64,000 bases of DNA, taken from assembly GCA_902787715.1 (NCBI GenBank), contig CADAHQ010000002.1, positions 124,001 through 188,000 of the forward strand. The letters are read 5' to 3'. A program made the position numbers and the translations under genes. The stretch comes from an uncultured Lachnospiraceae bacterium (GTDB lineage: Bacteria; Bacillota; Clostridia; Lachnospirales; Lachnospiraceae). A model generated the notes under the pieces. It did not search any database and was not told the origin of the DNA. It saw only the letters and a list, made by a program, of their open reading frames with translations. Position 1 is the stretch's first letter. The number at the start of each line of letters is the position of its first letter. Below are positions 52,367 to 56,559 of this stretch, piece after piece.

Positions 52367-53842
52367 TTAAGCCCAGGGATTCTCGGTCGGGTAAGGAAGC
52401 GACTTCGGCTGGTTGTAAGCAATGTCCTTGATGCCGAGGAACTTGAATACCTCGAACAGGGCCTTGCCGCAGTGACCGAATGCTACCGCACCGTGGTGAG
52501 GATATCTCTTCTGGATGAGCACGTGACGATAGAAGCGTCCCATCTCCTTGATAGCGAAGATTGCGATACCACCGAAGGAACGGGTAGGTACGTCGAGAAT
52601 CTCGCCCTCAGCGATGTAGGAAACAAGCTCTCCGTCGCTGTTGCACTGCAGACGATAGAAGGTGATGTCGCTCGCTGCGATGTCGCCCTCAAGGGTTCCG
52701 CGTGTGAAGTCAGGCTCGCTTCCTTCCGGCTCGAGGAGACGGTGCTGGATGAGCTGATACTTGATTGCACGGTCGCTGCACATCTTGCAGGACGGAGTGT
52801 TACCGCAGTGGAAGCCCATGAACGTATCGGTAAGCTTGTAATCATACTTGCCCTTGATGTCCTCGTCGTAGATGTACTGAGGAACGGAGTTGTTGATGTC
52901 AAGGAGAGTGATTGCATCGCCGGTTACGCAAGCGCCGATGTACTCGGAGAGTGCGCCGTAGATATCAACCTCGCAGGATACCGGGATACCGCGGCTTGCG
53001 AGACGGCTGTTAACGTAGCAAGGCTCGAAACCGAAGGTCTCCGGGAATGCAGGCCAGCACTTGTCGGCAAATGCCACATACTTGCGTGCACCCTTGTGCT
53101 GCTCAGCCCAGTCAAGGAGCGTAAGCTCGAACTGTGCCATACGAGCGCTCATCTCAGGGTAGTATTTGCCTTCGCCCATTTCCTTAGCCATGTCTTCGCA
53201 GACAGACGGGATACGAGGATCGTTCTCATGTGCCTTGTAAGCTACGAAGAGGTCAAGCTCGGAGTTCTCCTCAACCTCAATGCCAAGCTCATAGAGACCC
53301 TTGATGGGAGCGTTGCAGGCGAAGAAGTCCTGCGGACGAGGTCCGAAGGTAATAATCTTAAGATTCTTAACACCGATGATAGCGCGAGCGATCGGAACGA
53401 AGTCAGCGATCATCTTCGCAATGTCATCAGCGGTTCCTACCGGATACTCCGGAATATAGCCCTTGAGGTGGCGCATTCCGAGGTTGTAGGAGCAGTTCAG
53501 CATACCGCAGTAAGCATCGCCGCGGCCGTTGATCATGTCGCCGTCACCCTCGGCAGCAGCCACGAACATTACGGGGCCGTCGAAGTTCTTAGCGATCAAA
53601 GTCTCGGGAGTCTCGGGACCGAAGTTGCCGAGGAAAACTACAAGTGCGTTGCACTCGGCCTTCTTAACATCCTCAACCGCCTTGAGCATATCAAGCTCGT
53701 TCTCCACAGTTACGGGACACTCATAGAGGTCACCCTTGTAAGCAGCCTTGATAGCGGCGCGTCTCTTCTCGGACAGAACGATCGGGAAGCAGTCACGGCT
53801 AACGGCAACAATACCGAGTTTCACTACAGGAATATTGTTCAT
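52367..53842 (-). CDS. L-fucose/L-arabinose isomerase family protein
   Basis: A 491-residue protein; the start at 53842 gives MNNIPVVKLGIVAVSRDCFP and is preceded by GAAAGG. The Rossmann-like N-terminal domains (ALVVFLGNFGPETPETLIAK) and the metal-binding C-terminal part (GNTPSCKMCSD, then HHGAVAFGHCGKALFEVFKFL near the end) fit the FucI/AraA superfamily, which interconverts aldoses and ketoses. The exact sugar cannot be read. It is monocistronic with a strong promoter and biased codons, so it is probably highly expressed. No kinase or aldolase of the fucose pathway is adjacent. Confidence 0.85.
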   Translation of the reverse strand: MNNIPVVKLGIVAVSRDCFPIVLSEKRRAAIKAAYKGDLYECPVTVENELDMLKAVEDVKKAECNALVVFLGNFGPETPETLIAKNFDGPVMFVAAAEGDGDMINGRGDAYCGMLNCSYNLGMRHLKGYIPEYPVGTADDIAKMIADFVPIARAIIGVKNLKIITFGPRPQDFFACNAPIKGLYELGIEVEENSELDLFVAYKAHENDPRIPSVCEDMAKEMGEGKYYPEMSARMAQFELTLLDWAEQHKGARKYVAFADKCWPAFPETFGFEPCYVNSRLASRGIPVSCEVDIYGALSEYIGACVTGDAITLLDINNSVPQYIYDEDIKGKYDYKLTDTFMGFHCGNTPSCKMCSDRAIKYQLIQHRLLEPEGSEPDFTRGTLEGDIAASDITFYRLQCNSDGELVSYIAEGEILDVPTRSFGGIAIFAIKEMGRFYRHVLIQKRYPHHGAVAFGHCGKALFEVFKFLGIKDIAYNQPKSLPYPTENPWA

Positions 53843-53891
53843 TCTAAGTACCAAACCTTTCTCTAATTTGGCGGAGACCGCCATTACAACT

Positions 53892-54034: not shown

Positions 54035-54604
54035 TTATTTTACAATCAGGGAACCAAGAATCGTCTTTGCTTCCTCGCTGTCGAATTTGAAACCGGCGCT
54101 GGACACGCGGACAGGCTTGTCATTTACGGTCGCAATCAGCTCAAAACCGTATCCGCCGAAACCGTCGCTGTACTGGAAACCGGTCCAGGTGATGTCGCCG
54201 TAGGTTCCGGAGACGTCCACCTGCTCGTTGGTGTAAGTGTTCTTGTTGTAGTCGTAGTGCTGCTTCGCAAGGCTCTCATCCTCCCGCTTGAAGTCGAAAT
54301 ACTTGAAATCCGACTTCTTCACGGAGCAGTAGCGCGTGTCGTTCTCATCGAACACATCACCCTTGCGGAACGTCCACTCTGCGGGGATTCCCACCGTGAA
54401 ATCGCCCCACTCCTCAGTGGATGCAATGGTCAGGCCGGCAGCCTCGGTAGGCGTAGGATCCTCCTCGGGGGTCGGAGTGTCGGCTTCGTTTTTTTTGTCG
54501 TTCTTCTTTCTGCGGTCATTGTCATCGTCGTCATCGTCGTCGCCGCAGGCAGCAAGGCATACGCAGAGGCAGAGGACGAGCACAAGCATCAAAAGCTTTT
54601 TCAT
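54035..54604 (-). CDS. Putative lipoprotein
   Basis: A 189-residue protein with a lipoprotein signal (MKKLLMLVLVLCLCVCLAAC; Cys20 in LAAC), an Asp7 stretch, a charged and Thr/Pro-rich linker (about 28-55), and a beta-rich domain (WGDFTVGIPAEWTFRKGDVF to the end) that looks like a PsbP/DUF-type fold. Function is unknown. It is divergent from the VYAGP-protein gene across a shared 270-bp gap holding two outward promoters. Confidence 0.78.
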   Translation of the reverse strand: MKKLLMLVLVLCLCVCLAACGDDDDDDDNDRRKKNDKKNEADTPTPEEDPTPTEAAGLTIASTEEWGDFTVGIPAEWTFRKGDVFDENDTRYCSVKKSDFKYFDFKREDESLAKQHYDYNKNTYTNEQVDVSGTYGDITWTGFQYSDGFGGYGFELIATVNDKPVRVSSAGFKFDSEEAKTILGSLIVK

Positions 54605-54792: not shown

Positions 54793-54874
54793 GTAAGTAC
54801 GGTCTTTGCAGGACCGGAAAGAGGAAAGAAGATGCTGCACCGCTATGGCGAAGCAGCAGGGGAAGGAGTTTTCC

Positions 54875-55528
54875 ATGGGACTTTTTGACGATTTGAAGAA
54901 GAAAAAATACCCGAAGAACGGGATGTCCGGCGGACGCATGGGCCGCGTTTATGCCGGCCCCGGGCAGATGCCCGGATACCGCAGCGGGGACGAGGATGAA
55001 AACGAGGATCCGAACATGTGTGACGTTTACGCCGGCCCGGGTATGATGGATGAGATTGGTTACGAGGAGGAACCGGAAGTGACGGAGTCCGAGGCTGAAG
55101 AAACCGAAGCTGAAGCAACCGAGACTGAAGAAACTGAAGCAGAGGCGACAGAGGCGGAGGCACCGGTGCCGGAAGAGGAGAAGACAGAATCCGAAGTGCC
55201 GGAGCCGGAGGAAGAGCCCAAAGTCCCGAGACCGAGCCGGGACCAGTTTGACCCCCGGAACATGATGGCGGTGTACGCCGGCCCGGAATATTGGTCGCCG
55301 AAGCCCCAGAACCAGCCGGCGATGATGTTCGTTTATGCGGGGCCCGCGCAGATGCAAAATTACCGCGGTGGATTTATGAACCCGCAGCCGGCACCCGAGC
55401 AACCGGATGAGCCTCTGGAAAAGAAGAGCTTCTGTCCGGAGTGCGGCGGGCTTCTTCAGCAGGGATTCCGGTTCTGCCCGTTCTGCGGAACCCCCCTGAA
55501 GAAAAAGGGGGAGCAGGTGGACGTATGA
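54875..55528 (+). CDS. VYAGP-repeat protein with C-terminal zinc ribbon, probable substrate of the adjacent radical SAM enzyme
   Basis: A 217-residue protein; ATG 54875 has GGAAGGAG ahead of it (ATG 54845 is an alternative). The pentapeptide VYAGP occurs four times, at residues 25-29, 51-55, 133-137 and 153-157, each preceded by Met at -3 (MGR, MCD, MMA, MMF) and usually followed by Gly/Glu/Ala and then Met or Trp. A Glu/Thr/Ala-rich acidic linker fills residues 65-115. The C-terminus is a zinc ribbon (Cys187, Cys190, Cys201, Cys204). There is no signal peptide. The stop overlaps the start of a SPASM radical SAM gene. The layout suits a multicore modification substrate; this is inference. Confidence 0.75.
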   Translation: MGLFDDLKKKKYPKNGMSGGRMGRVYAGPGQMPGYRSGDEDENEDPNMCDVYAGPGMMDEIGYEEEPEVTESEAEETEAEATETEETEAEATEAEAPVPEEEKTESEVPEPEEEPKVPRPSRDQFDPRNMMAVYAGPEYWSPKPQNQPAMMFVYAGPAQMQNYRGGFMNPQPAPEQPDEPLEKKSFCPECGGLLQQGFRFCPFCGTPLKKKGEQVDV

Positions 55529-56559
55529 TGTATTGCTTACGGCATTGCGTCTGGGAGATTACCCTTGCGTGCTGCTTTTCCTGCAAATACTGCGGCTCAG
55601 CCGGCGGGCATGCGAGAGCGAATGAGCTCACGACGGAGGAGTGCTTCTCCGTGGCAGACCAGCTGGCGGAGCTTGGGTGTGAACGCGTCTCCATGATCGG
55701 CGGCGAAGTGTTCATGCGAAAGGATTGGAAAGAAATCGTCGGAAGACTCACCGGCCACGGAATCCGCGTGAATATCATCACCAACGGCTTCCTGTTTACG
55801 GATGCGCTTCTTTCGGACCTTAAGCGCCTTTCCATCGAGTCGGTGTCGGTTTCGTTGGACGGTCCGCGGGAGGTGCACGATGCGTACCGCCAGGCGGGCA
55901 GCTACGACCGCGCTGTTGCGGCCATTGCGAAGCTTTCGGGCAGCGGGATTCCGGTCTCGGTCATCAGCACGTTAAATGCAGTCAATGCAAAGACCCTTCC
56001 TGTCCTGTACGAGACCCTTGTTGACAGCGGCATCTTTGCCTGGCAATTGCAGGCCTGCTCGCCGATGGGAAACGCCGCAAACGGCGGCATCGACATCGCC
56101 TTTGACCCGCGGGAGGTGATTGGATTTGTCGCAAGTCATATGCGGCAGGCGCCGTTTATGCTGGGGGTTGCGGACAATGTCGGTTATTTTACACCTGAGG
56201 AGGGGAGCATTCGCGGAAACCTGAGCGGAAAGGCTTACTTCGCCGGCTGCAGCGCCGGACTGTCGTCCATCGGCATCGACAGCGTAGGAAACGTGCGGGG
56301 GTGCGAGTCCATGTATGATCCGCATTTTACGGAGGGGAATCTCCGCGAGAGAAGCCTTCGCGACATATGGGAGGACCCGGACGCCTTTGCATACAACCGA
56401 AAGTTTGATGAGAGCATGCTCACCGGTCCATGCGCCGAGTGTGAGCTGGGCGGATTTTGCGCCGGGGGATGCCGTTCTTACAACTATTTTGTACACGGAA
56501 AGCTTTACGAAGCGCCCCGTTGCGCACGCGCCATGAACGCCGCGGAAGGAACCGAATAA
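55525..56559 (+). CDS. Radical SAM/SPASM protein, probable peptide or protein maturase
   Basis: A 344-residue enzyme. The start overlaps the upstream stop (ATGATG at 55525-55530). The radical SAM cluster is Cys16-x3-Cys20-x2-Cys23 in LACCFSCKYCGS, followed by MIGGEVFMRKDW and ITNGFLF. The C-terminus has a complete seven-Cys SPASM motif: Cys242, Gly then Cys260 (GNVRGC), Cys303-x2-Cys306-x5-Cys312-x3-Cys316, and Cys333, able to hold two extra iron-sulfur clusters. SPASM enzymes typically modify peptides (thioether or C-C bonds, oxidation, epimerisation). No RRE domain is apparent. The likely substrate is the VYAGP protein. Confidence 0.9.
   Translation: MMYCLRHCVWEITLACCFSCKYCGSAGGHARANELTTEECFSVADQLAELGCERVSMIGGEVFMRKDWKEIVGRLTGHGIRVNIITNGFLFTDALLSDLKRLSIESVSVSLDGPREVHDAYRQAGSYDRAVAAIAKLSGSGIPVSVISTLNAVNAKTLPVLYETLVDSGIFAWQLQACSPMGNAANGGIDIAFDPREVIGFVASHMRQAPFMLGVADNVGYFTPEEGSIRGNLSGKAYFAGCSAGLSSIGIDSVGNVRGCESMYDPHFTEGNLRERSLRDIWEDPDAFAYNRKFDESMLTGPCAECELGGFCAGGCRSYNYFVHGKLYEAPRCARAMNAAEGTE

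Follow-up and report, generated by a model that had tools for sequence, protein, structure and literature searches.

Two overlapping genes in the window (the whole stretch of 64,000 nucleotides analysed here) probably form a protein-splicing cassette, in which a zinc-ribbon protein would be the multi-site substrate of a short radical SAM/SPASM enzyme; by analogy with characterised spliceases, we give this reading a probability of about 0.7. In the proposed mechanism, the enzyme would cut Tyr from each VYAGP sequence of its substrate (tyramine excision) and rejoin the chain, so that a reactive ketone remains in the backbone, with VYAGP acting as a splice site that has Ala instead of Gly. Recognition would proceed without a Nif11/NHLP leader and without a PlpY partner, likely by docking via the zinc ribbon and a single-copy YPx[N/R] element, and the product would perhaps be a set of ketoamide warheads for protease blocking, in which Val occupies P1. 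The splicing chemistry is considered probable from the precedent of PlpX, and the docking role of YPx[N/R] and the zinc ribbon, as well as protease inhibition, is inferred more weakly. The features concerned are as follows.

54863-54868, + strand: AAGGAG, Shine-Dalgarno-like, 6 nt 5' of the substrate ATG (sequence)
54875-55528, + strand: substrate ORF, 217 aa, with four VYAGP sites, an acidic linker and a C-terminal zinc ribbon (ORF translation, Pfam)
54905-54919, + strand: KYPKN (residues 11-15), candidate single-copy recognition element YPx[N/R] (motif counts; putative role)
54947-54961, + strand: VYAGP site 1 (residues 25-29; sequence)
55025-55039, + strand: VYAGP site 2 (residues 51-55; sequence)
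55271-55285, + strand: VYAGP site 3 (residues 133-137; sequence)
55331-55345, + strand: VYAGP site 4 (residues 153-157; sequence)
55433-55486, + strand: zinc ribbon Cys residues, CPEC...CPFC (187-204; PF13240)
55528-56559, + strand: radical SAM/SPASM enzyme, 343 aa, probable splicease (family models, tree, alignments, AlphaFold model)
55570-55593, + strand: radical SAM motif CxxxCxxC (residues 15-22; Cys invariant in a 55-row alignment)
56248-56523, + strand: SPASM region with seven Cys (241, 259, 302, 305, 311, 315, 332; PF13186, 31.7 bits; Cys invariant in both alignments)

The original prediction, made from the letters of the window, had described a protein with four VYAGP repeats, each with Met three residues before the Val, together with an acidic stretch, a C-terminal zinc ribbon and a stop codon overlapping the enzyme start, and all of this was confirmed in the ORF. 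Asp and Glu account for 42% of residues 61-125, the ribbon scores 26.7 bits on PF13240 (Pfam gathering score, 25), and the stop TGA (55526-55528) has its last base in common with the ATG at 55528. Four of the five Cys in the window substrate make up the zinc ribbon, whose pattern is also present in 57 of 72 related substrates, and none lies inside VYAGP; the Cys-rich core with thioether acceptor residues that marks sactipeptides and ranthipeptides is absent from this protein. All four window sites are of the form X-Y-A, not X-Y-G. Across the 2.48-Mb genome (54 contigs) the VYAGP codon pattern occurs four times, always within the substrate gene, and a reversed control pattern occurs three times.

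Two minus-strand genes lie before the pair. A putative lipoprotein with an Asp run after its Cys (CGDDDDDDDNDRRKK) is encoded divergently from the pair at 54035-54604, preceded by a perfect TTGACA-16-TATAAT promoter-like match, and its Pfam matches are weak and below the cut-off. The 505-aa protein encoded at 52367-53884 has the L-fucose isomerase C-terminal domain as its sole match.

The CxxxCxxC motif and the seven SPASM Cys of the enzyme are invariant in both enzyme alignments (7 rows and 55 rows), and the complete seven-Cys SPASM motif that had been predicted is thereby confirmed. The predicted numbering Cys16/20/23 is right when counted from an ATG one codon before; from the ATG at 55528 these residues are 15, 19 and 22. 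Just 14 residues precede CxxxCxxC and 11 follow the last SPASM Cys, too few to accommodate a fused leader-binding domain (N-terminal RRE), and the enzyme has no C-terminal extension. An AlphaFold model of the enzyme (mean pLDDT 89, pTM 0.88) has a fold close to those of PqqE, SkfB and SuiB, which stood near the top in PDB sequence and fold searches; no solved splicease structure was recognised in these searches.

We found that the enzyme gene and the VYAGP-protein gene are a conserved pair. In GTDB genomes a scan turned up 92 relatives; the enzymes of the 80 loci retained share 61-94% identity, with titles pointing mostly to Lachnospiraceae and to other Clostridia of rumen and gut. When the ORF with the best score among those ending close to the start of the enzyme was taken at each locus, a choice that favours the motif, and sites were counted as [VALTIG]-Y-[AGMNFYDSE]-[GAPCSV]-P, at least two VYAGP-like sites were present in the adjacent upstream ORF at 72 of the 80 loci. 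Among other ORFs of at least 100 aa from the same loci, at least two sites were found in 3 of 1,874, of which L015 and L064 are true motif proteins. Shuffling left at least two sites in 0.17 of the 72 substrates, and the sites numbered 294 in all over these substrates versus a shuffled mean of 4.3. Each of the 72 proteins has 2-9 sites, and the L169 protein has 10. With starts chosen by script, the two genes overlap in 32 of the 72 pairs and are separated by 0-30 nt in 30 more.

The eight other loci depart from this arrangement in several ways. A single site stands beside the enzyme in L044, L067 and L075; the motif protein lies downstream of the enzyme in L064 and L080; and L084 has one weak site on the opposite strand. 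L029 has no local motif ORF, and a six-site ribbon protein is encoded on another contig of the same genome (L141). In L083, a contig end cuts the locus so that the ribbon alone is visible, and a three-site ORF is found on another contig of its genome (L157). The L157 ORF, which contains DYPNNY, runs off its contig end, and the ribbon part in L083 runs off its contig start; the two are perhaps one gene split by assembly.

Surveys beyond these loci gave the same association. Within the genus, the enzyme was found in 16 of 22 genomes (11 of the 13 good ones), and at least two VYAGP within 2 kb occurred in 13 of the 16 enzyme-positive genomes versus none of the six enzyme-negative ones; in 11 of those 13 they lie beside the enzyme and in two in PAP2 tails on other contigs. 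A class-wide sample had the clade in 6 of 391 genomes (the window's own included), and the motif ORF adjoins the enzyme in all five new genomes, downstream in one. These data support the enzyme-substrate pairing of the original prediction and bear out its expectation of co-occurrence across many Clostridia genomes; the contrary outcome that it had named, a wide occurrence of VYAGP proteins with no enzyme, is not what the genus survey gave. A precursor gene beside the gene of its modifying enzyme, as in RiPP systems, is present at the same 72 of 80 loci.

Conservation within the site was read in a substitution scan of the 72 substrates, in which one position at a time was allowed to vary and the remaining four letters were held constant. 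Position 2 was Tyr in 184 of 184 cases and position 5 was Pro in 184 of 185, whereas Val at position 1 gave way to A, T, G, L or I in 28 of 212, Ala at position 3 was replaced in 32 of 216, and Gly at position 4 in 27 of 211. The residue after Tyr was Ala at 245 and Gly at 11 of 287 sites across the family, and Y-4 was M, I, F, L or V at 242 of 297 sites (background, 20%). An invariant Tyr preceded by a variable residue is what splicing predicts. Of the two residues that the earlier guess had named, Tyr is supported as the likely target, and a side-chain change on Val, which is replaceable, is not supported; a cross-link in VYAGP, also suggested at that time, is probably wrong, with the closest families pointing instead to tyramine excision.

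A second sequence element was suggested by the same substrates. Of 73 substrates, 64 contain YP.[NRGS] (three of them more than once), compared with a shuffled mean of 12.4 and with 93 of 1,663 control ORFs, and 45 of the 73 contain a stricter form, YPx[NR] with one of eight residues added, against 1.9 after shuffling and 25 of 1,663 among the controls; these counts come from the very data in which the YPx[N/R] motif was spotted by eye.

By family models, the enzyme is akin to the TIGR04103 and TIGR03913 enzymes. TIGR04103 (241.3 bits) and TIGR03913 (226) were its best NCBIfam models, the next scoring 140; the TIGR04103 cut-off of 725 bits was not reached by the window enzyme, and a Nostoc enzyme used as a control scored 853.1. 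Identity to the nearest TIGR04103 (Nostoc) and TIGR03913 (GDL) enzymes is about 35%. Among the plasmid matches listed (30, and then 40 drawn from across the ranking, of 95 records matched), TIGR04103, TIGR03913 and unnamed kin were found at 1e-44 to 1e-67, and mycofactocin and others at 1e-26 or weaker, with a gap between them. An unrooted tree of 33 rows cut to the core, from which PqqE and the long L136 were dropped and in which PlpX itself is not a row, was split into 26 and 7 rows with support of 100/99. The larger side holds the VYAGP clade (15 rows), Nostoc TIGR04103, the GDL-type enzymes, L106, clostridial enzymes with TPR-like tails, L103 and TIGR04133, the last on a very long branch (4.58) whose position inside the group is unsure; the smaller side holds MftC, NirJ, TIGR04053 and L099-L101. 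An earlier tree that included PqqE, L136 and a faulty L097 row did not resolve the groups.

Within the PlpX-like group the VYAGP clade forms a divergent branch, and the term "new system" in the original prediction was too strong. The clade was not described in the portions of the literature that our searches covered; the main primary splicease literature lay outside them, and an earlier description is possible. The VYAGP zinc-ribbon protein family has no name in the libraries searched.

Several known systems can be compared with the window pair. PlpXY acts at MYG and LYG sites with loss of C8H9NO; its tag PIRPLYGLPI is hydrophobic at Y-4 and carries Pro at Y+3, and another of its tags, AVAAGYGVVFPG, has no Pro at Y+3 (PMC10533398). 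A second source gives PlpX as a member of IPR026482 that works with PlpY (PMC11002830). The Nostoc locus has a Nif11 peptide ending GSIALYGLPPELF, with the core ALYGLPP, and a 71-aa ORF follows its enzyme. We take IPR026482 to be TIGR04103, in agreement with the Nostoc locus, which shows the anatomy described. PlpX/PlpY (Pleurocapsa) and TIGR04103 (nif11-class peptide radical SAM maturase 3) share with the window pair the radical SAM and seven-Cys SPASM motifs and sites of the form X-Y-small residue. The Pro at Y+3 of VYAGP recurs in the Nostoc core and in the PlpXY tag PIRPLYGLPI, which matches the extended site of the VYAGP clade at Y-4 as well, whereas the Nostoc core has Ser at Y-4. Other differences are the length of the enzyme (343 aa in the window, 420 aa in Nostoc), the lack of any PlpY-like ORF found or Nif11/NHLP leader, the mostly Ala residue after Tyr compared with Gly for PlpX, and substrates with two to ten sites, usually with a zinc ribbon, unlike those of the PlpX system.

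Peptides or proteins beside further relatives also carry X-Y-[G/A] sites. Near L096 and L098, leader-type peptides, judged NHLP-like by eye, contain TTAYGIARP and LAYGVPIHG close to their ends, and GG-leader peptides of L174 contain LYGIEP and LYGIKP. Clostridial relatives with TPR-like tails ("TPR" by eye; L110, L176, L180 and L097) resemble the VYAGP clade in having a multi-site protein directly upstream, with 6, 9, 10 and 8 Y-[GA]-x-P sites, respectively, in the forms KYGYP (L110), KYGVP and KYGYP (L176, L180) and KYAAP (L097). Pro stands at Y+3 in 33 of the 50 Y[GA] places of these four substrates and Lys at -1 in 35; they differ from the window pair in this mostly Lys residue before Tyr, in a C-terminal extension of the enzyme and in the I42 domain that two of the four carry. 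No motif was found within 1.5 kb of L175, L177, L178 and L179. The TIGR03913 GDL motif peptide-associated maturase belongs to the same clade as the window enzyme, and its DUF1843 peptides are short, with PYGPA, MYMAT, LYAAG and MLYGGA and without Pro at Y+3. GDL-type enzymes are larger and have a zinc-ribbon-like Cys set at their own C-terminus, the VYAGP clade having its ribbon on the substrate instead.

Other loci offered side observations. DUF1843 peptides at L105:3153-3866 have LYAAG, MYAAS and PYGAG near the N-terminus, possible Y-A/Y-G sites without Pro at +3. The zinc-ribbon-like Cys set is C-terminal in GDL-type enzymes and N-terminal in a Tropicibacter enzyme (L104, L105, L106), and the zinc ribbon may be a movable docking module. 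Beside a TIGR04133 enzyme of Parabacteroides, a lipoprotein (L137:578-1420) contains the X-Y-G-x-P site PCEYGSPHA close to its N-terminus, and TIGR04133 pairs might be spliceases too.

VYAGP is read as a splice site because of the X-Y-[G/A] sites of relatives and the PlpXY precedent. Against the splicease reading stand the Y-A site, whereas PlpX was shown to act on Y-G, the score of 241 of 725 bits with about 35% identity and no PlpY or leader found, and an imperfect match of the extended site (AVAAGYGVVFPG and DUF1843 without Pro at Y+3; Nostoc with Ser at Y-4); chemistry can also vary inside SPASM families. The enzyme could instead carry out another Tyr-centred backbone reaction that has diverged from that of PlpX, such as C-alpha/C-beta cleavage, epimerisation or chain cleavage; Tyr and Pro as the sole near-invariant site residues and the low identity to the nearest TIGR04103 and TIGR03913 enzymes would fit such a reaction, which we nevertheless hold to be unlikely, as the sister groups keep X-Y-[GA], often with Pro at Y+3, and shared chemistry is the simplest account.

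It is quite improbable that the enzyme cross-links Val and Tyr or alters side chains in the manner of mycofactocin, with Tyr staying in the backbone. The SPASM fold near PqqE, SkfB and SuiB is in keeping with such a reaction, and MftC, also a SPASM enzyme, works on a Val-Tyr pair (PMC8326336). The residue at -1, however, may be A, T, G, L or I in the VYAGP clade and is mostly Lys in the four sister substrates; MftC falls outside the clade on the tree, its gene is adjoined by that of the chaperone MftB, unlike the window pair, and its model gives the window enzyme 127 bits against a cut-off of 265. The mycofactocin substrate MftA has its VY at the C-terminus, whereas the VYAGP sites of the window are internal and multiple. 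A Val-Tyr cross-link of this style was hence set aside as weakened by both the substitution scan and the tree. That the zinc-ribbon protein is a partner or scaffold, with VYAGP binding another protein, is very improbable: zinc ribbons commonly mediate binding and 15 of the 72 adjacent motif proteins have no ribbon pattern, but short invariant-Tyr motifs in variable number, among unrelated linkers and in otherwise unrelated proteins, fit modification sites better.

We also searched for the accessory components of known systems. Using queries from 18 of the 80 loci (blastp E 1e-8; families in at least 8 loci reported), no third conserved gene (PlpY, RRE, exporter or protease) was found beside the pair; beyond the pair, the search returned ORFs that were antisense or in the wrong frame, and two families of 9 loci each, scattered in place, one of them an ABC ATPase. 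It recovered the divergent substrate family in 20 loci alone, and a small divergent partner could be missed by it. An ORF follows the enzyme in 56 of 77 loci (51-708 aa) with no common length, and phmmer with the Nostoc 71-aa ORF gave no match at E<=1 against ORFs of at least 45 aa in the 80 loci; a very divergent PlpY-like partner, or one elsewhere in the genome, is possible. A Pfam scan of 73 substrates (E<=0.001) listed zinc ribbons and a few fused domains and no Nif11/NHLP leader. The original prediction that the substrate has no leader/core split, and that no exporter or protease is nearby, was borne out by these scans, and in this the pair departs from RiPP pathways, in which a leader/core split goes with a protease or exporter. 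No export route is visible, and the site of action may be intracellular or post-lysis.

A more tentative proposal is that VYAGP with YPx[N/R] is a leaderless portable splice tag, through which one enzyme would edit the main chain of several cell proteins, some of them encoded at a distance, a cellular modification system rather than a natural-product pathway; we regard this as possible but doubtful. PAP2 membrane phosphatases L107 and L108 (61% identical) have C-terminal tails with two VYAGP and are encoded on other contigs of enzyme-positive genomes, a 79-aa two-site protein (L140) lies away from the enzyme, and the six-site substrate L141 is on a contig different from that of its enzyme (L029). 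In-frame fusions join substrates to RsmA (L013) and FMN reductase (L053). The substrate of L067 is fused to what is presumably a PHP-like domain, the fused part having no Pfam match, and L064 has a protein-kinase-like gene spread over two frames, the first matching PF00069 (35.1 bits) and the second carrying a two-site tail. These fusion and off-locus cases are single MAGs and may include assembly faults. No trans substrates are claimed in the window's own genome, where [VA]YA[GA]P codon matches other than the four sites number 8, scattered, versus 21 for the reversed control. Off-locus single VYAGP, among the matches listed and opened, were mostly chance frames or ordinary proteins, two of which are presumably a ribosomal protein L13-like and a sugar-kinase-like protein.

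PAP2 co-occurs with the enzyme in 15 of 16 enzyme-positive and none of 6 enzyme-negative genus genomes. As a general partner it was rejected: the VYAGP tail is present in 2 of the 15 alone, and co-occurrence within a genus may be mere descent. Of the other 13 PAP2 tails, the 11 that were read (9 plus L128 and L130; L121 and L126 left out) have no motif.

Spliceotide products are called protease inhibitors in a published account (PMC11117315). A chagasin I42 domain is present in the sister substrates L176 (46.1 bits) and L097 (39.5 bits; cut-off, 27.2), and none was found in the L110 and L180 substrates or in the 73 scanned substrates of the VYAGP clade. The two proteins with this domain (L176:293-1303 and, for L097, the ORF preceding its enzyme) consist of an N-terminal I42 domain and then tandem KYGxP or KYAAP sites, and appear to be two-warhead protease inhibitors. 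By analogy, VYAGP arrays would perhaps become multivalent ketoamide protease inhibitors with a small aliphatic P1. If so, protease blocking would be suggested as the function of the widespread VYAGP zinc-ribbon protein family.

If the splicing reading is true, backbone splicing that makes ketoamides would occur in many rumen and gut Clostridia by very compact machinery, namely one short enzyme and a short tag, with no leader or partner protein evident. Such minimal recognition would be directly testable and would offer a leaderless route to beta-amino-acid proteins, and the editing of ordinary cell proteins in trans would become possible.
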